In this document: piece after piece, positions 17,588 through 61,045 of the stretch
Position numbering within the stretch: the stretch's first letter is position 1
Layout: every line of letters starts with the position of its first letter
Assembly (NCBI GenBank): GCA_016929695.1
Contig: JAFGII010000062.1
Span: 1-63,991, forward strand
Length of the DNA: 63,991 bases
Origin: Ignavibacteria bacterium
GTDB taxonomy: Bacteria; Bacteroidota; Ignavibacteria; Tepidaquicellales; Tepidaquicellaceae
Reading direction: 5' to 3'
Position numbers and translations under genes: made by a program
Notes under the pieces: generated by a model
Told to the model about the DNA's origin: nothing
Seen by the model: the letters and a program-made list of their open reading frames with translations, nothing else
Database searches by the model: none

Positions 17588-19465
17588 ATGGTTAAAAGAA
17601 TTTTATTTTTATTATTACTGTTAGTATCAGCGGCGGGTTTAACTTATTCTCAGACTTTAACAAAATCGCAGAATGAATTACTCTCACGAAATATATTTTC
17701 GGTTATATTTACCGGAGATGCAATCGGCGGAGAAAAAATAATTGATATGAAAGTTGATAAATCAGTAATGACAAACATTCCAAATCTGCCCTCTGTAAAA
17801 TTTTCTAATGGAAAACTTTCGCGGGAAGTGATAATGCAGGACTTAATCTGGACTATAACATATCAACCGACAGGCGGACAAACCATATATGATTTACAGT
17901 CCAACGGGACTCCCCAGCAAATCTGGCAGGACCCGATAATACAGGACTTTATACATTCCGTTTTTATGTCGGCAGAATACGGCGACCTTTCATTTACTAA
18001 CCGAAGAAGTAAATATTATTTCAGCCACAACAAAGGAACGAACTGGATGTTTATTACGGAGGCAGGTATGGTTAAAACAGGTTTCTGTGTTATAACCGGA
18101 ACTTCGGAAGGTAATGCACTTATCGGAAATCACGGTGCAAACGGAGGAGGTAATACAAGAACGCAATTTTATTATGATGCTGCTCCGGGTTTAGGTTCAT
18201 TTACTCTTTTAAACCCGCCTGCTAATAACTTAAATCCCTGCGTATGGCCAAGAGTAGTTGCGACCAATTCCATATTAAATACAAGAAAATTTGTTTATTT
18301 AAGTGCTATGAACGGTATTGATTCAACTTTCAGGGGTTATTCAAACTCATTATCCTTAAATAATTTTGGTCCGTGGCAATTTTTTAATTCAGACCAGGCG
18401 GAAACTTATGCAATTGCAAGAAGTACAAGCGGAGCCAAAATCGGTATTGTTTACAAAGCAAATGAAGTATTAGTACCTGCTGATTACGGGGATGTATATT
18501 ATGTTGAATCAATAGATGACGGATTAAACTGGTCAGTTCCCTTAAAAATTTTTAAAGCAAATTTTATAACTGACAGTCTTGCCGCATTAAGAGGTTTATC
18601 TTTAGTCTATCAGGGAGAATATCCGAAAGCAGTTTTTGAAACTATTAAGCAGACTACTGCGGGAAATTATTTTCCGGGTGCGCCTGCAAAAATCAGATTC
18701 TGGTCAACAACTCTTCCGGGGTCGGACCCGAACAGAAGTATCGTGCTTGCAGATACAAGTGATGTCGGCTGGCATCCTAATTTTGGGGTAAACGATGTTC
18801 TGGGAACATTATGCCGTCCTGCTATTGGTCGTTCTTCTGATGGAATTGCATTATTCTGTGTGTTTATGGTGCCGTCGGATTTTGCCGGTGGTTCTGCTGA
18901 TACAACACCTTATAAGGATATATGGGCAAAAGTATCAGGTGACGGCGGTTTTATATGGAGTTCCGCCGTAAAAATAAATTTTGATTCGCCAAGACTGGAT
19001 TGGGCTTATCCGTCTGTTTCTCAGGTTAATGACCGGGATTCTAATTTCTATTATTTCAATATTGTAGTTCAGGCAGATACAATCCCGGGTTCTTTTATTA
19101 ACAGTCCGGGAAACGGACAATCACTTGCTCAACAATATCATATAAGAGTAAGTATCCCGAAAATTGCCACAGGCTTTGAGAAAATTTCAAACGAAATTAC
19201 CGAAATATATTCATTATCGCAGAATTATCCGAACCCGTTTAATTCAACGACAAATATCAAATTCCGGAACTCAAATCCGGTGAAAATTAAATTAAAAATT
19301 TTCGATGTAACAGGGAAAGAAGTTACGGTTCTTGTAAATGATAATTTTCAGGCAGGAAATCACGAAGTGAAATTCGATGCGAAGAATTTACCGGGCGGTA
19401 TTTACTTTTATCGGATGGAGGCGGGTAAATTTACGAGTACAAAAAAAATAATTATACTGAAATGA
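17588..19465 (+). CDS. Secreted Asp-box protein with T9SS tail (copy 1)
   Basis: 625 residues. Signal peptide MVKRILFLLLLLVSAAGLTYSQ. The middle contains Asp-box-like motifs (HNKGTNWMF, SIDDGLNWSVPLKIF, SGDGGFIWSSAVKI), suggesting a sialidase-style beta-propeller without evident catalytic residues. The last about 85 residues are a type A T9SS sorting domain (LSQNYPNPFNSTTNI ... GGIYFYRMEAG...KKIIILK), so it is probably exported through the outer membrane and anchored or released. Highly similar to the following gene. ATG 17588 follows AGGGAG. Confidence 0.85.
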   Translation: MVKRILFLLLLLVSAAGLTYSQTLTKSQNELLSRNIFSVIFTGDAIGGEKIIDMKVDKSVMTNIPNLPSVKFSNGKLSREVIMQDLIWTITYQPTGGQTIYDLQSNGTPQQIWQDPIIQDFIHSVFMSAEYGDLSFTNRRSKYYFSHNKGTNWMFITEAGMVKTGFCVITGTSEGNALIGNHGANGGGNTRTQFYYDAAPGLGSFTLLNPPANNLNPCVWPRVVATNSILNTRKFVYLSAMNGIDSTFRGYSNSLSLNNFGPWQFFNSDQAETYAIARSTSGAKIGIVYKANEVLVPADYGDVYYVESIDDGLNWSVPLKIFKANFITDSLAALRGLSLVYQGEYPKAVFETIKQTTAGNYFPGAPAKIRFWSTTLPGSDPNRSIVLADTSDVGWHPNFGVNDVLGTLCRPAIGRSSDGIALFCVFMVPSDFAGGSADTTPYKDIWAKVSGDGGFIWSSAVKINFDSPRLDWAYPSVSQVNDRDSNFYYFNIVVQADTIPGSFINSPGNGQSLAQQYHIRVSIPKIATGFEKISNEITEIYSLSQNYPNPFNSTTNIKFRNSNPVKIKLKIFDVTGKEVTVLVNDNFQAGNHEVKFDAKNLPGGIYFYRMEAGKFTSTKKIIILK

Positions 19466-19837: not shown

Positions 19838-21721
19838 ATGCTGAAAAAAATTCTTCTTTCTGCTTTTGTTTTTGTTTTGGCTGTGAATATCGCGAGTTCA
19901 CAAACATTAACACAAGCTCAGAAAAACTTACTAGGACGCTCAGTATATTCGGTGAAAATCATCGGAGATGCTATAGGCGGCGAAAAAGTTATTGATATGA
20001 AAGTAGATAAATCGAGAATGACAAACATTCCGAATTTACCTTCGGTTTCAATAATTAACGGCGTGATAACAAAAGTTGTCAATGCACCTGATTTAGCCTG
20101 GACTATTACCTATACCCCGACAGGCGGTCAGACGATTTATGATTTACAATCAAACGGGGTTCCTCAGCAAATCTGGCAGGACCCGAACACTACTAATAAC
20201 ATCCATTCAGTTTTAATGGTATGTGATTATGGTGATGAAGGATTTACTCAAAGGATTTCGAAATACTTCTTTAGTGCTGACGGAGGAACGACCTGGGCAT
20301 TCATCGGCAACGCAGGTGTGGTTTCTAACGGCTACTGTGCAATAACAGGTACATCCGAAGGTAATGCATTAATTGCTAACCACGGTGCCAACGGCGGTGC
20401 TCCGACGAGAACGCAGTATTACTATGATGCAGCACCGGGATTAGGTTCATTTACTTTATTAGATCCACCGAGCCCGGGTTCAGTAGGTTACATCTGGCCC
20501 AGACTGGAAGCAACAAATTCGATTTCCAATACAGTAAAATTTGTTGGTGCTTCTTCTCCCAACGGTCCGGACTCTGCGTTTCACATTTATTCAAATTCAC
20601 TGGAAACAAATAATTTCGGTCCCTGGACATTCTTCCTCGGAGACCAGGCAGAAACTTATTCTGTTGCAAAAAGTGCAAGTGGTGCGAAAATCGGATTATT
20701 ATATAAAGCTAACGATGTACTTGACCCGAATTCATACGGCGATGCATTTTTCATTGAATCAACAAATGACGGTATGACATGGTCAACACCGCTCAAGATT
20801 TTCCACGCTAATTTCAACACAGACAGTCTCGGGTGTTTAAGAGGATTGAATTTGATTTACAAAGGCGAAGACCCGAAAGCAGTATTTGAAACAGTAAAAA
20901 TAACACGGGAAGGAAGTTATTTCCCGGGTTTACCGGCAAAAATTAGATTCTGGTCAACAACCCTTCCGGGTTCAGACCCTGACAGAAGCATTGTGCTTGC
21001 AGATACAAGTGATGTCGGTTATCATCCGAATTTCGGTACAAATGACGTTTACAGTACACTTGCCCGTCCTACTATCGGAAGGTCGGCAGATGGTGTTGCA
21101 CTGTTCTGTGCATTTCAGGTTCCTTCTGACTTGGCAGGCGGCTCTGCAGATACTACACCATACAGAGACTATTGGGCAAAAGTATCAGGCGACGGTGGAA
21201 GCACCTGGAGCACTGCAATAAAACTCAATTATGAAACTCCGAGATTTGACTGGACTTACGGTGCAGTTTCAAAAATCAATCACCAGGATGCACAATATTA
21301 CTATTTCAACATGACTATTCTTGTTGATACGATTCCGGGTTCATTCGTGCAGGGTGCAGGAAACGGAAAATCTCTCGCCCAGCAGTTCTATATGAAAGTT
21401 CAAATTCCGAAGAATGAAATAATAAGCGTTAAGAATGTTTCAACTGAAATTCCGAATGCTTATTCATTATTACAGAATTATCCGAATCCGTTCAATCCGT
21501 CAACAACAATCAGATTTGAATTACCGAAAGCAACCAATGTAACATTAAAGATTTACAATATTAACGGTCAGGAAGTTGCCTCATTAATTAACAATACATT
21601 AATTAATGCAGGAACAAGCGAATATACATTTGACGCTTCAAACCTGTCAACCGGAATTTATTTCTATTCAATTCAGGCAGGCAATTTCAAAGACACGAAG
21701 AAGATGGTATTAATTAAATAA
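19838..21721 (+). CDS. Secreted Asp-box protein with T9SS tail (copy 2)
   Basis: 627 residues, colinear with the previous gene (both share KVDKS-MTNIPNLPSV, LQSNG-PQQIWQDP, ITGTSEGNALI-NHGANGG and others). Signal peptide MLKKILLSAFVFVLAVNIASSQ. Asp boxes are clearer here (SADGGTTWAFIG, STNDGMTWSTPLKI, SGDGGSTWSTAIKL). C-terminal T9SS type A domain from LLQNYPNPFNPSTTI to KMVLIK. AAAGGAG precedes ATG 19838. Function unknown; a surface-exposed adhesin or glycan-binding propeller is one option. Confidence 0.85.
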   Translation: MLKKILLSAFVFVLAVNIASSQTLTQAQKNLLGRSVYSVKIIGDAIGGEKVIDMKVDKSRMTNIPNLPSVSIINGVITKVVNAPDLAWTITYTPTGGQTIYDLQSNGVPQQIWQDPNTTNNIHSVLMVCDYGDEGFTQRISKYFFSADGGTTWAFIGNAGVVSNGYCAITGTSEGNALIANHGANGGAPTRTQYYYDAAPGLGSFTLLDPPSPGSVGYIWPRLEATNSISNTVKFVGASSPNGPDSAFHIYSNSLETNNFGPWTFFLGDQAETYSVAKSASGAKIGLLYKANDVLDPNSYGDAFFIESTNDGMTWSTPLKIFHANFNTDSLGCLRGLNLIYKGEDPKAVFETVKITREGSYFPGLPAKIRFWSTTLPGSDPDRSIVLADTSDVGYHPNFGTNDVYSTLARPTIGRSADGVALFCAFQVPSDLAGGSADTTPYRDYWAKVSGDGGSTWSTAIKLNYETPRFDWTYGAVSKINHQDAQYYYFNMTILVDTIPGSFVQGAGNGKSLAQQFYMKVQIPKNEIISVKNVSTEIPNAYSLLQNYPNPFNPSTTIRFELPKATNVTLKIYNINGQEVASLINNTLINAGTSEYTFDASNLSTGIYFYSIQAGNFKDTKKMVLIK

Positions 21722-51251: not shown

Positions 51252-52955
51252 ATGAACAACATCAAGAGACATTATTTATTTATTATTATTTTATCTGTTT
51301 TTATTCCTGTTATAGGAGTTTTTTCTCAGGTTAATCAGGGAATTAATTTAGACACTGTAAAAAGCGGGAAATATGATAACGGAAAAATGTGGACATTCCA
51401 TAATCTTCCTGCAGAATATTTCCGGTCGGAATACAATTTTGTCCCTACTAAGGAATGGCTAAATCACGCAAAAATGTCCGCACTGAGATTTGCGAATTAC
51501 TGTTCTGCTTCTTTCATCTCGGAAGACGGTTTGGTAATGACTAATCATCACTGCGGCAGGGAAAATGTAACAAAAGTAACGGAAAAAGATGAAAATTTGA
51601 GTGAGAGCGGTTTTTTTGCCGGGAGCCTTGCTGAGGAAAGGAGAGTTCCTGATTTATACGTATCTCAGTTAAGAGAAGTAATAGACGTTACTGAAATAAT
51701 AAAAAATGAAATGGATAAAGGGAAAACCGACGAAGATAAAATTGATTTACTTGAGGAAAAATCAAAGGAACTTGTAAAAAAATATAATGATGAACTAAAA
51801 CTTAAATGTGAACTTGTGTCACTTTACAATGGGGGAGAATATTACATATACGCATACAAGGATTATAATGATGTAAGGTTAGTGTGTGCACCGGAAACTC
51901 AAATCGGATATTTCGGCGGAGACTATGATAATTTCACATATCCGAGATACAACCTCGATTTTACATTTTTCAGAGTTTATGAAGATGACAAACCATTAAA
52001 GGCCGAGCATTATTTCAAATGGAGTAAAAGCGGAATTGATTCAGGCGGAGTAATATTTGTTGTGGGAAATCCCGCTTCAACATCAAGATTAAAGACAGTT
52101 GCCGAACTGGAAATTATGAGAGATGTACTTTATCCTTATTACGTTAATTTAATTAATTTTAATTTAGTATTTCTTAAAAGTCAGCTGGAAAAGGCGGGTG
52201 AAAATAAAGAAGAAATAGAAAACGAATATTTTTCATATATGAACTCGCTGAAAGTCTTTAAAAATACACTTGATAATCTGAATGACCCGTATTTAATGGC
52301 GCGGAAAAAAGATTTTGAGAATAAATTCATAACAGCAATAAATTCAAAACCCGATTTAAAAAATAAGTACGGAAAAATCCACGATGAAATCAATGAATTA
52401 ATTGAAGATCAGAAGATTTTAGGAATTGATGGTTATCAAGAGTTTCAAAAAATTCTCGATGCAAAAAATTCAATACTTGGAAGGGCTTTGTTTGAAGTTT
52501 ACGGGCATACGATTCCGCCCGATGCTACGTTTACTTTAAGACTTTCTGACGGAGTTGTTGCTTCTTATGACTATAACGGAACTATTGCACCTGTTTTTAC
52601 AACCTTCTATGGTGTTTATGACAGATATTATTCGTTCGATAAGCAATATCCGTGGAATTTACCTGACAGATGGAAATCCATACCTGAGGGATTACCCCTT
52701 GAAACTCCAATGAATTTCATCGGGACATGCGATATAGTAGGCGGTAATTCCGGTAGTCCAATAATAAACAAAGATGCGGAAATTGTCGGTCTGGCATTTG
52801 ACGGGAACATAGAAAGTTTATCAAGTGATTTCATTTTTACAACCGAAACTAACAGAATGATAGCGGTTGACTCGAGAGGAATAATTGAAAGCCTGAGGTA
52901 TGTATATAAATTTAACCGTTTATATAATGAAATTATAAACGGGAAAATTGAATAG
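51252..52955 (+). CDS. S46 family dipeptidyl-peptidase, short form
   Basis: 567 residues with signal peptide (ends GVFSQV). Chymotrypsin-fold motifs: catalytic His in TNHHCG (residues 97-102) and Ser500 in GGNSGSP. The residue 18 after the Ser, which sets P1 preference in DPP7/DPP11, is Gly (GLAFDGN), as in DPP7. DPP7/DPP11 have about 700 residues, so parts of the helical domain are missing. Probably releases dipeptides in the periplasm. It lacks a T9SS tail. Confidence 0.87.
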   Translation: MNNIKRHYLFIIILSVFIPVIGVFSQVNQGINLDTVKSGKYDNGKMWTFHNLPAEYFRSEYNFVPTKEWLNHAKMSALRFANYCSASFISEDGLVMTNHHCGRENVTKVTEKDENLSESGFFAGSLAEERRVPDLYVSQLREVIDVTEIIKNEMDKGKTDEDKIDLLEEKSKELVKKYNDELKLKCELVSLYNGGEYYIYAYKDYNDVRLVCAPETQIGYFGGDYDNFTYPRYNLDFTFFRVYEDDKPLKAEHYFKWSKSGIDSGGVIFVVGNPASTSRLKTVAELEIMRDVLYPYYVNLINFNLVFLKSQLEKAGENKEEIENEYFSYMNSLKVFKNTLDNLNDPYLMARKKDFENKFITAINSKPDLKNKYGKIHDEINELIEDQKILGIDGYQEFQKILDAKNSILGRALFEVYGHTIPPDATFTLRLSDGVVASYDYNGTIAPVFTTFYGVYDRYYSFDKQYPWNLPDRWKSIPEGLPLETPMNFIGTCDIVGGNSGSPIINKDAEIVGLAFDGNIESLSSDFIFTTETNRMIAVDSRGIIESLRYVYKFNRLYNEIINGKIE

Positions 52956-54950: not shown

Positions 54951-55569
54951 AATACTTATTGCCGATGACCATCCTATAATAAGGAAAGGATTAAGACAGA
55001 TAATTAATGATGAATCGGATATGCAGGTTACTGCGGAAGTCTCCGACGGTTTTGAAGCACTTGATAGACTGAGGAAACAAAAATTTGATATAGCAATCCT
55101 CGATATTTCGATGCCGAAAAAAACTGGTCTTGAAATACTTGATGAGTTAAAACTTGAAAAAATAAAGACACGGATTTTAATTTTAAGCGTATATTCCGAA
55201 GAGCAGTATGCATTAAGAGTAATAAAAACGGGGGCTAAGGGATATTTAACCAAAGAAAGTGCTCCGGATGAACTTGTTAAAGCAATTAGAAAAATTATCG
55301 AAGGCGAAACATATATAAGTACAATAATCGCAGATAAAGTTTTATCTGATTTAATCGTTGATAATAAAAAAATTCATGAATGTCTTTCAAACAGGGAATA
55401 TTCCGTTATGTTAATGATAGCAAAGGGTATGACACTTAAAGAAATGTCGTATCAGTTAAATATCAACGTAAAAACTATAAGTACTTACAGAAAAAGAGTA
55501 ATGGATAAAATGAAAATGAATTCCAATGCTCAATTAATTTTGTATTGTCAGGAAAACAAACTATTATAA
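54928..55569 (+). CDS. NarL/FixJ-family response regulator
   Basis: 213 residues. Receiver with Asp59 (DIAILDISMP) and Lys in GYLTKESAP; LuxR-type helix-turn-helix at the C-terminus (LSNREYSVMLMIAKGMTLKE...NINVKTISTYRKRVMDKM). The reading frame begins inside the 3' end of the HisKA_3 kinase gene, so the pair is coupled and very likely forms a cognate system. Confidence 0.95.
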   Translation: MSTDKKIKILIADDHPIIRKGLRQIINDESDMQVTAEVSDGFEALDRLRKQKFDIAILDISMPKKTGLEILDELKLEKIKTRILILSVYSEEQYALRVIKTGAKGYLTKESAPDELVKAIRKIIEGETYISTIIADKVLSDLIVDNKKIHECLSNREYSVMLMIAKGMTLKEMSYQLNINVKTISTYRKRVMDKMKMNSNAQLILYCQENKLL

Positions 55570-55696
55570 TAATTTTCCGGAACAGTTCCCCGAATTTCAA
55601 TTCAAAATATCATACATAATTGACCGTCTGACCTGCATCAGAACCGGTTTAGAATCACTAGATTTTCAATATTGCCGTAAAAATGGGATAATTCAG

Positions 55697-55711
55697 GTCT
55701 CATAATGAGAC
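55697..55711. promoter_or_regulatory. Palindromic activator site upstream of protease operon
   Basis: GTCTCAT-A-ATGAGAC, a perfect 15-bp inverted repeat centred 77 bases before the -24 GG of the sigma-54 promoter. It shares TCTCA-N3-TGAGA with 62436-62450, upstream of the receiver-only gene. Position fits an enhancer for an NtrC-family activator. Confidence 0.65.
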
Positions 55712-55779
55712 TAAACAATCTCAAAAAAAAATAAGTCAATAAAAAATCATTATAATTTTATTATATGTGATTAATATTA

Positions 55780-55795
55780 TGGCATTATAATTGCT
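55780..55795 (+). promoter_or_regulatory. Sigma-54 promoter of protease operon
   Basis: TGGCATTATAATTGCT matches TGGCAC-N5-TTGCW with GG at 55781-55782 and GC at 55793-55794, the required 10-base interval. ATG lies 45 bases after the first G of GG. The block AATATTATGGCATTAT (55773-55788) is identical to the one in front of the receiver-only gene. Confidence 0.8.
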
Positions 55796-55825
55796 GTATA
55801 TATGAAGGCAATATATCAAAAATAA

Positions 55826-58456
55826 ATGAAAAAATTTGAATTCTGTGTTGCAGGAATAAATAAATATATATTTATAATATTTATTTTTCTTGCAAACATG
55901 GTGGAATCGCAGACATGGCAGCAGTATCACGTTCCGACAGGTGTGACTACACATATTAATTTCACATATACAAGCACGGGAAATAGTAACAACACCGCCG
56001 GGAATACAGGAATATTGCCTTTAAATATATCGTCTGATACATCACGAGCATTTTTACCTATGGATTTAATAAATGACCCGTCTGCATATCCTTGGCGTAC
56101 AACTGTGAAAATCGGCGGAGCAACGGGAATTTTAATTGACCCATATCATGTATTGACTGCTGGGCATATCATCAGTTTTTCATTATCGTTCGGCAGTATA
56201 AAAGTTATTCCTGTATATGCTCAGGGTGATTCTCCTTATGGATTCGCATATCCGGTTTGCGTTTATTTATTAACTGATTATACTTCGACGGGACCGAAAG
56301 ATTTCGGAATTATCAAGTTAGACCGTCCGCTCGGCTCGATTACAGGTTGGAACGGGTACGGATATAATAATTCGAATGCATTTTTTAATACATCAAACGT
56401 ATTCTACAATCCGAGTTATCCCTGTACGGGATTATATAACGGTGAATATTTATATAACTGGAAAGGCATATTTAATACTGTAAATACAGACTATATGATA
56501 TCAACAAGGACAGGTGTATCAGGTATGAGCGGCAGTTGTGCTTTTACAAAAGTAAATAATGAAAATGTAGTCTATGGTCTCGTTATCGCAAGCGGTATCA
56601 AGTTCAACAGAATAACGGCACAAAAATTTGATGCTGTTAATGCGGTTTTAAACAATAACCTTTCGGCTGATTTTGACATAATTCCTTTTTATGTAAAATC
56701 ATATCCCGAAATAATCAAAACCGGTGAGATGCTTGATTCGGTAAGTTTTGGTGTATTAAACTATTCAAATCAGACTCCTGTTTATATAAGCGTTACTGCA
56801 AAATTATATATATCTGCGGATTCGATAATAACTGCAAATGATGACCTGATTGGGACATATAATTATAATTTAAATTTTGAAGCCAGGGAATCTCAGATAA
56901 TAATAGGAAAAAATATTTCGGCTCTTAATAAACCTGCAGGAAAATACTGGCTTGGAGTTATATTATCGGGAGATAACAATACGGCTAACAATGTAACAGG
57001 ATACCGTGATTGTCAGAAATTAATCATTAACAATTCTGAAAATGTATATATAAAAGGAAGAATTACTTCGACGCAAAGCAATAACGGAATTAATGGTGTT
57101 GAAATAAACGGATTTCCGTACCCGGTGATTACTGATTACAACGGAAATTTCGAGACTGCAGTACCTGCCGGCTGGAGCGGAACGATAACATTCAGCAAAG
57201 CAGGATATGAAATATCACCCTCTTTTTACGCATTTCAAAATGTTATATCAAACGAGGCTGTAAATTTTTCTATAGCAAAAAAAATTTATACAGTTTCCGG
57301 CAACGTTAAATCTTTTATATCTCAGAACGGAGTTTACGGTGTTAAAATGAGCGGTCTGACATGTGAACCGATATCTGATACAAATGGTTTTTTCTCGGCA
57401 AATATTTTTCACGGCTGGTCCGGAAGAGTAGTATGCTCTAAATCATACTATATAATTAATCCCTATTATTATGACATTTCATATCTGTCATCTAATACGG
57501 TATATGAAATTTCTGCAGGATTAAAAATTAGCGGCTATATATTTAATGAAAACGGAAGTCCCATAACGAACGCAATAATTTCAGGTTTTCCCTCCGGTAA
57601 TCTATTTTCGGGAACAGGCGGATATTATTCAGCATATCTGGATTCCGGCTGGTCGGGAACTGTTTCATGTAATTATAATTCATATATTTTCAATCCTTTA
57701 TTTAGGGTATATAATAATATTTATTGTAATTATGAATATCAGGATTTCCAGAAGACAGCGAATCAATTTTTGACACTTAAGTTGAAATTATTTTTGGGCG
57801 GACCGTATATAGTGAATTCTGATTCTATGTCAACGGTTTTAAATGTAAAAAATTTAATTCCGCTTGTTCCTCCTGATTCATTCAGTTGTAAGTCGGATGT
57901 GTTTAAATACATAAAGCAACCATCAGATACGGTTTCGTCACAATTTTTAAATAGCCATCCTGAAATCGTTGACTGGATATTGGTTGAAATCAGAAATTCA
58001 GTTAATACTTCCATAGATACGTTGCCTGTATTTTTATGCAGAGACGGTAGGGTAATAAATACTAACGGAGATAGCATAATTAAGTTTAGAACCGGTATCC
58101 CTGCTGGAAATTATTATATTATAGTAAGACACAGGAATCATATTGCCGTAATGTCTGCCGGTACAGTAAACATTTCATCTTCGACACCTCTTTATGATTT
58201 TTCGACAGGGCTGGATAAATATTACGGGAATTCAGCTGATTATCTAGGAAACGGAACTTACGGACTTTTTGCAGGAGATGCAAATCAGGACGGAAGAGTA
58301 TCTAATAAAGACTTCAAACTATATAAATCGGACAATATAAATGCAAGGAGGGGTTATATCAAAACAGACTTTTCTCTCGATGGATTCGTGACAGGTTCCG
58401 ATTTTAATAAATACGCGCCAAATAATAAAAATAAAGTGGAAAGTAAAATTTTGTAG
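55826..58456 (+). CDS. Secreted serine protease with repeats and dockerin-like end
   Basis: 876 residues with signal peptide (ends NMVESQ). Trypsin/V8-like protease: His114 in VLTAGH, Asp159 in PKDFGIIKLD, Ser235 in GVSGMSGSCAF. After a linker domain, three repeats of about 75 residues share G-x3-N..G-I/V...G-W-S-G-T/R (residues about 410-635), each like a carboxypeptidase-D regulatory/Ig unit. The final part has paired calcium-binding loops (GDANQDGRVSNKDF and DFSLDGFVTGSDF), a dockerin-type I look. No T9SS tail. Cotranscribed with the next gene (4-base gap). Confidence 0.82.
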   Translation: MKKFEFCVAGINKYIFIIFIFLANMVESQTWQQYHVPTGVTTHINFTYTSTGNSNNTAGNTGILPLNISSDTSRAFLPMDLINDPSAYPWRTTVKIGGATGILIDPYHVLTAGHIISFSLSFGSIKVIPVYAQGDSPYGFAYPVCVYLLTDYTSTGPKDFGIIKLDRPLGSITGWNGYGYNNSNAFFNTSNVFYNPSYPCTGLYNGEYLYNWKGIFNTVNTDYMISTRTGVSGMSGSCAFTKVNNENVVYGLVIASGIKFNRITAQKFDAVNAVLNNNLSADFDIIPFYVKSYPEIIKTGEMLDSVSFGVLNYSNQTPVYISVTAKLYISADSIITANDDLIGTYNYNLNFEARESQIIIGKNISALNKPAGKYWLGVILSGDNNTANNVTGYRDCQKLIINNSENVYIKGRITSTQSNNGINGVEINGFPYPVITDYNGNFETAVPAGWSGTITFSKAGYEISPSFYAFQNVISNEAVNFSIAKKIYTVSGNVKSFISQNGVYGVKMSGLTCEPISDTNGFFSANIFHGWSGRVVCSKSYYIINPYYYDISYLSSNTVYEISAGLKISGYIFNENGSPITNAIISGFPSGNLFSGTGGYYSAYLDSGWSGTVSCNYNSYIFNPLFRVYNNIYCNYEYQDFQKTANQFLTLKLKLFLGGPYIVNSDSMSTVLNVKNLIPLVPPDSFSCKSDVFKYIKQPSDTVSSQFLNSHPEIVDWILVEIRNSVNTSIDTLPVFLCRDGRVINTNGDSIIKFRTGIPAGNYYIIVRHRNHIAVMSAGTVNISSSTPLYDFSTGLDKYYGNSADYLGNGTYGLFAGDANQDGRVSNKDFKLYKSDNINARRGYIKTDFSLDGFVTGSDFNKYAPNNKNKVESKIL

Positions 58457-58459
58457 TTA

Positions 58460-59629
58460 ATGAAAAAGTTATTACTAATATCGGTATTGTTTTTGTTTAT
58501 GGAGTTATCTGCAGGGATTGATATTTTAAATGCCCAGGTTAACGGTACAACAATCCTGCAGAGACTGTCATTAGTTTTGAATTCAGGAACTAATGGAGGA
58601 GAATTCACATTTGATTATAAAATAAAAGGAGCATATATGTCGCCTGCGAACACACTCGCTTCTTTAAATGCAGACATATCTTATGATTCCAATGCTCTGA
58701 GATTTATTTCAGGAACGAACTGGAAAAGTGAAATTGATTCTTTGAACGGGTATAATACAGGAATTAAAAGTAATCCTTTGGATTCCGGGTCCTTCAGATG
58801 TGTAAGAATATCAATAGACGCTCCGGATTTAAACTCAGACGGGTCAGGTCAGATTAAGGGATTCAGTATCCCCACTGAATACTTAACAATCGTAAGGCTG
58901 AATTTCATAATAATTGATAATACAAAATCGGTTACGGTTTCCATTGAGGGTGAAACAAATCAGGTGGGATTCTTCCTAAATCCGTCCAATTCACCCAATA
59001 CATTTGAAATATCAGACCAGATACTGTTACCACCCGAAAATATTTACAACCAGCCGCTGCCTGTTAATCTTGCGTCATTTTCGGCGGGAATTTTCGGGCG
59101 TAATGTGAAATTAGAATGGAAAACAACTTACGAGGAAAATAATTCGGGTTTTGATATCGAACGGAGAAAAACAGGAAAAGAGGGTTGGAATAAAATTGGG
59201 TTCGTTAAAGGATATATAAATAAGAATTCAGTTTCAGAATATCATTATACCGACAGAAAGTTAGTAACAGGTGAATACAATTACAGACTGAAGCAGATTG
59301 ACCTGAACGGGAATTATCAATACTACGAACTTAATAACATTATAAAAATAGGCATTCCCGATAAATTTGCAGTTTCACAAAATTATCCTAATCCATTCAA
59401 TTCAAGCTCAAAAATTGATTTTGAATTACCGCAAAACTGTGTTGTGAATTTAATATTATATGATATTACCGGCAAAGAAATAAAAAAGATTATCAATAAC
59501 ACATTTTACAATGGAGGCTATTATACTGTCGATTTTAATACCGGAGATTTATCCAGCGGAACATATTTCTACAGATTTACTACTGACAATTTTCCGGGTG
59601 TAATAAGGAAGATGATAATTATAAAATAG
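58460..59629 (+). CDS. Secreted T9SS-tail protein, possible cohesin-like domain
   Basis: 389 residues, signal peptide ending ILNAQ. N-terminal about 150 residues have the beta-rich cohesin-like outline (ASLNADISYDSNALRFISG, LTIVRLNFIIIDN), followed by an FN3-like domain (LPVNLASFSAGIFGRNVKLEW... NNSGFDIERR) and a type A T9SS sorting domain (VSQNYPNPFNSSSKIDFEL ... FYRFTTDNF...KMIIIK). Cohesin assignment is weak and made by eye only. It follows the dockerin-bearing protease by 3 bases, so a surface anchor for it is an attractive inference. Confidence 0.7.
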   Translation: MKKLLLISVLFLFMELSAGIDILNAQVNGTTILQRLSLVLNSGTNGGEFTFDYKIKGAYMSPANTLASLNADISYDSNALRFISGTNWKSEIDSLNGYNTGIKSNPLDSGSFRCVRISIDAPDLNSDGSGQIKGFSIPTEYLTIVRLNFIIIDNTKSVTVSIEGETNQVGFFLNPSNSPNTFEISDQILLPPENIYNQPLPVNLASFSAGIFGRNVKLEWKTTYEENNSGFDIERRKTGKEGWNKIGFVKGYINKNSVSEYHYTDRKLVTGEYNYRLKQIDLNGNYQYYELNNIIKIGIPDKFAVSQNYPNPFNSSSKIDFELPQNCVVNLILYDITGKEIKKIINNTFYNGGYYTVDFNTGDLSSGTYFYRFTTDNFPGVIRKMIIIK

Positions 59630-59863
59630 AAGATAGGACTCTCCGGATTCCTGAGTTCGGAAATGCCATTCTAAAACACAGTGAATTCTCTCATACTCCG
59701 TAATGTCCAGTATTAAATAAATGATATTAAAAGGAACTTATTAGATTCACTGATGAAAATTCAGCATAACCGGTATGTTATGTTTATTTAAGAAAACCCG
59801 TCCTAACCAAATATTTTCATATAAATTTATATTGTTTCTTTTTATATTAAACATTCATAATAT

Positions 59864-61045
59864 ATGGAGAGAGAAAAAGTATTAATCGTAGAAGATGACA
59901 GAGTAACTTCTGAGATTCTGAAACAAATGTTAAGTAACAAAAACTTTATTGTTACTGATATTTTGTCGGATTCCGAGTCTGTACTTGAATCAATCGAGAA
60001 GAAACTCCCCGATTTAATATTAATGGATATCATAATTAAAGGCGAGCGGGACGGCATCGAGATTGCGAATTTAATCAAAGAGAAATACGAAATACCGGTA
60101 ATATATCTGACGTCAGATACAAGTGACAATACAATAGAGCGTGCAAAAATATCGGAACCGTTCGGTTATCTTATAAAACCGATAAACGAAAAGATATTAT
60201 TAGCGAGTATAGAATTTACCTTACAGAAGCAGTATATTCACAACAAAAAAATTCTCGATACATTAAGGAAAGCCAACGATGAGCTGGAAAACCGTGTTGA
60301 GGAGAGAACAAAAGAATTAATTACTAAGAACAAGCAGCTTGAAATAGAGATGAAGCAGAGAAAACAGGCGGAAGAGCAGCTTAAGAAATCGGAGCAGTTA
60401 GCAACAATCGGGAAAATGTCCGCAGTACTTGCCCACGAAATACGGAATCCGTTGAATTCAATAAAAATCAATACCGATATTTTATCGGGAATACAGAATA
60501 TAAAAGACACGAACCGCAGGCGAATACAAATAATTCAGAAGGAAGTTAATAGGCTAGACACGCTTGTAAAAGAGGTTCTTCAGTTCTCACGCCAGGGAAA
60601 TGTTTTAAAAAGTGAATTTGACATTAAGAATTTAATCGAGCAAATCAAATCTCAATTGAAACCCGAAGCGGAACACAGAAATGCAAATCTCATCAATGAC
60701 GTTGATAATTATGTAATTTATGCTGACAAAGAGAAATTGAAGCAGGTATTACTTAATCTGATTCTGAATTCACTGGAGGCATTACCTGAAACAAACGGAG
60801 TAATACAAATATATTCTGAAACAAAGAAAGGTAAATTCAGACTGTACATCCGGGACAACGGTTTCGGAATTGAGAATTCCGAAAAAATATTTGACCCTTT
60901 TTTTACAACAAAGAGCAACGGGACTGGTTTAGGATTGCCGGTATCTATGAATATCATTGAGCAGCACAACGGAATAATTGAATTAAAGTCAACAAAACAA
61001 GGAGAAACAATATTTTGTATCTCTTTACCTTTGAAAAAAAAATAA
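59864..61045 (+). CDS. REC-HisKA histidine kinase
   Basis: 393 residues. Receiver 1-120 with Asp55 (LILMDII) and SEPFGYLIKPI, followed by a coiled coil (about 125-180) then HisKA with H191 in LAHEIRNPLNSIKI, and HATPase with N box (LLNLILNSLEALPE), G1 (DNGFGIENSEKIFDPFFTT) and G2 (NGTGLGLPVSMNIIEQHNG). NtrB-like. No membrane helix. 9 bases before the NtrC-type activator gene: a cognate pair. Confidence 0.94.
   Translation: MEREKVLIVEDDRVTSEILKQMLSNKNFIVTDILSDSESVLESIEKKLPDLILMDIIIKGERDGIEIANLIKEKYEIPVIYLTSDTSDNTIERAKISEPFGYLIKPINEKILLASIEFTLQKQYIHNKKILDTLRKANDELENRVEERTKELITKNKQLEIEMKQRKQAEEQLKKSEQLATIGKMSAVLAHEIRNPLNSIKINTDILSGIQNIKDTNRRRIQIIQKEVNRLDTLVKEVLQFSRQGNVLKSEFDIKNLIEQIKSQLKPEAEHRNANLINDVDNYVIYADKEKLKQVLLNLILNSLEALPETNGVIQIYSETKKGKFRLYIRDNGFGIENSEKIFDPFFTTKSNGTGLGLPVSMNIIEQHNGIIELKSTKQGETIFCISLPLKKK

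Follow-up and report, generated by a model that had tools for sequence, protein, structure and literature searches.

We analyzed two adjacent genes in a 63,991-nucleotide stretch of Ignavibacteria bacterium DNA (assembly GCA_016929695.1, contig JAFGII010000062.1, positions 1 to 63,991; "the window" means this whole stretch), the first encoding a predicted secreted protease with a dockerin at its C-terminus, and the second encoding a protein that combines a domain of predicted cohesin fold with a C-terminal sorting tail of the type IX secretion system (T9SS). The two genes are located on the same strand and in the same frame, with a gap of 3 bases between them (58457-58459), and the locus contains the following features:

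55826..58456, + strand: gene 1, predicted secreted trypsin-like protease with a C-terminal dockerin, 876 amino acids (aa), without a T9SS tail
56081..56545, + strand: trypsin-like domain, residues 86-240, triad H114/D159/S237 (PF00089 and the motifs TAGH, DFGIIKL and GMSGSC)
57050..57211, + strand: carboxypeptidase-regulatory-like domain, residues 409-462 (PF13620, E 7.3e-6, 26.7 bits, cut-off 32.3)
58091..58273, + strand: X-module-like segment (repeat module), residues 756-816, containing ..VRHRNHIAVMS.. and preceding the dockerin (locally built hidden Markov model, HMM; P0002 matches)
58274..58453, + strand: dockerin domain, residues 817-876 (PF00404; profile of 88 such domains against solved dockerins)
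58277..58312, + strand: calcium loop 1, DANQDGRVSNKD (sequence; final D conserved without exception across 88 aligned dockerins)
58367..58402, + strand: calcium loop 2, DFSLDGFVTGSD (sequence; initial and final D conserved without exception across 88 aligned dockerins)
58460..59629, + strand: gene 2, predicted cohesin-fold domain and T9SS type A tail, 389 aa
58532..59065, + strand: predicted cohesin-fold domain (type A partner), the AlphaFold2-modelled stretch (fold search; PF00963 under cut-off)
59363..59626, + strand: T9SS type A sorting tail, residues 302-389 (TIGR04183, PF18962, local HMM)

The C-terminal end of the gene 1 product contains two 12-residue calcium loops, GDANQDGRVSNKDF and DFSLDGFVTGSDF, and the duplicated loops DANQDGRVSNKD and DFSLDGFVTGSD, each ended by an invariant D, show the pattern that defines a type I dockerin. 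PF00404 (Dockerin_1) scored 19.7 bits with the domain alone, 24 bits in the genome search, where in-frame neighbours were included, and 12.9 bits with the whole protein, against a cut-off of 22.9. We compared this region with a set of 88 open reading frames (ORFs) containing the module and dockerin, drawn from 79 selected loci plus the window (L048 was omitted, being contained in L118). PF00404, by far the commonest family in this set, matched 86 of the 88 domains at E up to 0.1, and a profile of all 88 placed solved dockerins at the top of a search of the PDB (2y3n_B, E 2.1e-11). No T9SS tail was found in gene 1 by Pfam, NCBIfam or a locally built tail HMM. An earlier, sequence-only reading of this DNA had described paired calcium loops without a T9SS tail, followed 3 bases on by a gene with such a tail, and our analysis confirms this anatomy, with the tail of gene 2 scoring above curated cut-offs (TIGR04183, E 6.8e-9, 35.6 bits against 23; PF18962, E 3.9e-8, 33.9 bits against 27).

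The same reading had speculated that the N-terminal domain of gene 2 is cohesin-like, and proposed a structural comparison with cohesins. An AlphaFold2 model of this domain, based on an eight-sequence alignment (178 residues, predicted local distance difference test (pLDDT) 78.3, predicted template modelling score (pTM) 0.80), folds like cohesins: the top Foldseek match was 5nrm_A (E 2.7e-7), the best 50 matches listed were all cohesins or cohesin-bearing cellulosome components except 9ifr (the CLIPPER domain of an adhesin), and VIA-align superposed the model on 6kgf_C with Z 14.9 over 144 aligned residues (root mean square deviation 2.5). At the level of sequence, PF00963 was the sole Pfam family listed for the domain (15.2 bits, E 0.026, cut-off 24.1) and matched 5 of the 10 members of its family, which we call type A (best E 0.0016), and neither gene 2 nor the type A profile found a match by sequence in the PDB. 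A comparison by hhalign of the type A profile (ten relatives) with a profile built on 26 cohesin domains of the class gave 82.6% probability (E 1e-5), against 0.1 to 0.7% for two reversed and five shuffled control profiles, which points to a weak but specific link to cohesins. Chance as the source of the likeness is ruled out by the fold search and these controls. The cohesin assignment therefore holds for the fold, a predicted cohesin jelly-roll, and we class the domain as a divergent cohesin-fold domain outside the membership of PF00963.

Our search of the source genome demonstrated that the arrangement occurs there twice. PF00404 gave two matches, and behind each of these dockerin genes is a gene for a small secreted protein with a T9SS tail, which is more than chance. 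The second dockerin protein (contig C65, G000:C65) is rich in fn3 domains, has the same module-dockerin at its C-terminus, and lacks a T9SS tail; 29 bases after its gene is one encoding a secreted, T9SS-tailed protein of 273 aa, whose partner domain we call type B. The genome has the T9SS, with SprA (E 1.1e-40) and PorU (E 4e-267) identified. We found no multi-cohesin scaffoldin in this genome, where the single domain of gene 2 is, besides a DnaN-like ORF, the only PF00963-like match. The match in that ORF (L001) was dropped as chance on account of its location, the ORF having been recognised by eye.

We then surveyed 99 genomes, including that of the source, for types A and B, and 44 genomes for a further partner type, C/D, of dockerin-rich genomes. 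Type A gave 10 matches in 7 genomes, type B gave 36 matches in 19 genomes, and the C/D search gave 21 matches at E < 1e-40, its 8 further weak matches being type B loci. We counted the positions of the 67 partner-domain matches by hand from coordinates and gene maps: 57 are located directly 3′ of a dockerin gene, another 4 take second place in a tandem, contig ends account for 3, and the remaining 3 are elsewhere. By type, 8 type A genes are directly downstream of a dockerin gene, 1 is second in tandem and 1 is not adjacent (G009); 31 type B genes are directly downstream, 3 are at contig ends (G021 C31, G007 C499 and G043 C10) and 2 are not adjacent (G007 C91:3053, and G006 C160, which is interrupted by Ns); and 18 type C/D genes are directly downstream, with 3 second in tandem. 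We considered whether the G009 pair was split between contigs, but the layout of L051 and L052 does not fit, and its type A gene was scored as non-adjacent. The gene pair in the window is thus one case of a recurrent module in related bacteria, and this recurrent gene order supports the cohesin-dockerin pairing that the sequence-only reading had predicted.

Dockerins and partners also occur together. Among the 44 genomes of the two nearest families, 30 of the 32 with a P0002 (dockerin) match contain an A, B or C/D match, against 1 of the 12 without, there at a contig end; these counts are not independent, since the genomes are related. In family f2 (15 genomes), each of the six genomes with a dockerin match carries an equal number of type B matches, and eight of the nine without lack type B, the ninth (G043) having a type B gene truncated where its contig stops. 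Family f1 comprises 29 genomes, and a partner match was present in 24 of the 26 with a dockerin and in none of the 3 without (G027 and G028 were outside the C/D search, and both have type B). The exceptions are G008 and G013, and in G008 the dockerin gene is followed by a gene for a T9SS-tailed protein weakly matching type A (L140).

The tails within these pairs are complementary, and the pairs are matched by type. None of the 88 dockerin ORFs has a T9SS tail of its own, and in 50 of the 88 the next same-strand gene within 500 bases has one, a share that is a biased rate because the 79 loci were picked for holding matches. Another 2 ORFs precede a partner-domain gene that is truncated where the contig stops, and a small number of the 50 have as neighbour a tailed protein that is large or unrelated (e.g., L149, L059 and L172:6839). 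A tree of the 88 module-dockerin regions required 14 changes of partner label, compared with a shuffled mean of 45.5 and with none of 200 shuffles as low, and in genomes containing both type A and type B (the source genome, G006, G010, G021, G022 and G027) the dockerins fall into separate clades, each with its own partner type. In these patterns dockerin type follows partner type. The proteins that carry the dockerin differ widely: besides trypsin-like proteases, the 17 scanned include GSDH-like, FG-GAP, laminin G with P-domain, fn3, beta-helix, YCF48-like and GH18 proteins, so the part they share is the tail and not the enzyme.

Based on this anatomy, we propose, with a probability of about 0.7, that genes 1 and 2 encode a two-component unit for secretion and surface display held together by cohesin-dockerin binding. 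We infer, from signal peptides read by eye, that both proteins would enter the periplasm, each by its own signal. The X-module and dockerin of the protease would bind the cohesin-fold domain encoded by gene 2, a predicted and presumably calcium-dependent interaction, and the pair would then most probably cross the outer membrane jointly through the SprA channel. The pair would be retained at the surface because gene 2 has a T9SS type A tail, which is missing from the protease, or else would be released by PorU. In this proposal the cohesin protein would act as a sorting tail supplied in trans, serving as a surface anchor and probably also as a piggyback export signal.

Several of our results weigh against this proposal. 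The trypsin and cohesin matches in the window are both under the Pfam cut-offs, and a prediction of the dockerin and cohesin domains as one fused chain, made with unpaired alignment rows, failed on the dockerin itself and so showed no docking (pTM 0.39, dockerin about 30 pLDDT). Among partner types A, B and C/D, the cohesin fold is demonstrated, by modelling, for type A only: types B and C/D form related groups (95.1% probability by profile comparison), their probabilities against cohesins by sequence are 0.3 to 5.5%, and PF00963 matched none of 17 C/D members. The clustering in the dockerin tree partly reflects shared ancestry. In addition, such a neighbouring partner is missing for 36 of the 88 dockerin ORFs, 21 of them in G012 and G014. 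Orphan module-dockerin proteins (secreted, ..NFVSVIRP type, without a T9SS tail or an adjoining known partner) are numerous in each of several genomes: G012 and G014 (L056-L062), and G003, G011, G015, G018, G023, G024 and G025. Such dockerin-rich relatives contain at least 28 P0002 matches per genome, with PF00404 first-look candidates reaching 322 in G012. Our search for a partner in trans identified no PF00963 match at E up to 0.1 in G003, G011, G012, G014, G018, G023 or G025, and one weak match each in G015 and G024.

Of the other explanations, the one we take most seriously, if as an unlikely one, is that the binding is real but the protease leaves the cell by another route, with gene 2 serving as a surface anchor only. 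This rests on the same anatomy, as gene order, absent tails and matched types fit joint export and surface holding alike, and assembly outside the cell is how cohesins and dockerins operate in the cellulosome. A T9SS-anchored scaffoldin of this kind has been inferred for Candidatus Stygibacter, in the part of PMC8542988 that concerns it. Joint export, on the other hand, additionally accounts for how the cargo leaves the periplasm, and on the dockerin proteins we scanned no further signal for crossing the outer membrane was seen (no search aimed at other export systems was made). The orphan dockerins bear on a second explanation, which we consider about half as probable: many dockerin-ended proteins in G012, G014 and their relatives have no neighbour of a known partner type, as would be expected if the X-module and dockerin were themselves a secretion signal read by the T9SS or another machine, with the tailed neighbour an accessory resembling PorP/SprF. 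Type B T9SS substrates do cluster with cognate PorP/SprF genes, as stated in the sections of PMC10202324 we cite, but the neighbour here has a type A tail, the type A partner has a predicted cohesin fold, and the tail of the cargo is, by sequence, a dockerin.

Coincidence within an operon is improbable. If the two secreted proteins did not interact and the cohesin-like domain bound something else, as the cohesin-like fold of the CLIPPER domain in 9ifr and the 3 of 67 partner matches away from any dockerin gene might suggest, we would not expect 57 of the 67 to be directly behind dockerin genes of widely differing cargo, nor dockerin type to track partner type. Least probable, and to our minds very nearly negligible, is that gene 2 encodes an inhibitor or folding partner that masks the protease until release, an idea that arises from the cargo of this particular pair being a protease; the cargoes found beside other such partners include GSDH-like, FG-GAP, laminin G with P-domain, and fn3 proteins, none of them a protease by Pfam.

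Our two-component proposal can be set beside known systems. Clostridial type I and type II pairs (2ccl, 5nrm, 2b59 and others) likewise combine a cohesin fold with a two-loop dockerin, and the module preceding the dockerin here may resemble the X-dockerin of the type II pairs. Those systems use Gram-positive anchors, whereas here the anchor would be a T9SS tail, and the source genome yielded no multi-cohesin scaffoldin. We take Melioribacter roseus to be a relative of the source organism. Its cellulase genes, in the excerpt of PMC3534657 that deals with them, are reported to contain no dockerin or scaffoldin domains. The sequence-only reading had called a surface anchor for a dockerin protease unusual for T9SS bacteria, which fails for this class, dockerin/T9SS pairs being common within it, and also in view of the T9SS-tailed scaffoldin published for Cloacimonadota (PMC8542988): in Ca. 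Stygibacter, dockerin-bearing enzymes, including peptidases, occur with a cohesin protein that has a T9SS C-terminal domain and is proposed to hold them at the surface. That scaffoldin is a 3,755-aa protein with tandem cohesins and carbohydrate-binding domains, whereas gene 2 encodes a 389-aa protein with a single cohesin-fold domain, the partner gene is directly behind its cargo, and separate partner types accompany separate dockerin types.

Among T9SS substrates with type A, B or C tails, gene 2 belongs to type A, and type B substrates are also clustered with cognate partners; in the pages of PMC10202324 we cite, the signal is within the exported protein, whereas here it is on a putative docking partner, with none on the cargo. 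The T9SS passes folded proteins via SprA, and its substrates require a folded C-terminal domain (PMC9251779, in part). Hitchhiker export by the twin-arginine translocation (Tat) system and piggyback import into peroxisomes similarly move a signal-less subunit with a signal-bearing partner, a mode of transport that the cited portion of PMC9251779 does not report for the T9SS. Our search of the open-licence literature found no publication describing T9SS adaptors with a single cohesin whose genes accompany those of their cargo, and we rate this arrangement as a new form of cohesin-dockerin assembly, the T9SS-tailed scaffoldin itself being already known.

Detailed examination of gene 1 placed the triad H114, D159 and S237 in S1 motifs, by which it was assigned. 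PF00089 scored just under its cut-off (E 5.8e-4, 20.2 bits against 20.6), and a relative (L047:5729-8341) scored 31.5 bits. The X-module-like segment matched a local HMM at E 7e-26, with the gene 1 row included in building that HMM, and conservation with close relatives starts near position 57740. No Rfam family was found within 55300-60000. Elsewhere in the window, two more proteins with T9SS tails (local HMM) are encoded at 17588-19465 and 19838-21721, and a secreted protein is encoded at 51252-52955, 5′ of two-component genes. The last resembles an S46 dipeptidyl peptidase in its TNHHC motif.

In the dockerin-rich genomes, several loci (L168, L169, L175-L178, L219 and L220) contain a gene for a dockerin protein of 1,022 to 1,046 aa followed by one or two C/D adaptors, and a Pfam scan of this protein in L168 only gave no domain but the dockerin. 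Dockerin proteins of family f2 (L153-L156, L181 and L182) have 37 to 55 extra residues after the dockerin, several with basic ends, e.g., NNRK. Across the class, PF00963 scored above its cut-off in 35 of the 99 genomes, and there are operons whose products carry between one and three cohesins together with a T9SS tail. Single proteins combining cohesins with a module-dockerin were found in G006, G009, G026, G055 and G073 (the dockerin part in G073 being seen in the sequence); L118:2227-3387, L063:7657-9009, L119:5765-10651 and L121:2496-7073 contain cohesin domains with a C-terminal module-dockerin. Proteins of this composition may be adaptor scaffoldins. A further recurrent pair, in other families of the class, places a large T9SS-tailed protein with one cohesin beside a protein with three (L108-L114 and L125, not L111).

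We also put forward, tentatively and at somewhat less than even odds, a wider reading in which these bacteria use a detachable T9SS tail: a whole class of exported proteins would lack this tail and carry the X-module and dockerin as a "ticket", and small cohesin-fold/T9SS adaptors of several specificities would ferry these proteins across the outer membrane via its channel and anchor them at the surface. Under this wider reading, the dockerin-rich relatives would reuse their one to three C/D adaptors, or more adaptor types would exist. If our two-component proposal is true, the absence of a T9SS tail would not mark a protein as no T9SS cargo, and counts of the secretome based on tails would be too low in these bacteria. 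The T9SS would be able to carry a folded complex of two proteins, and the matched types would offer orthogonal cohesin-dockerin pairs for Gram-negative surface display.

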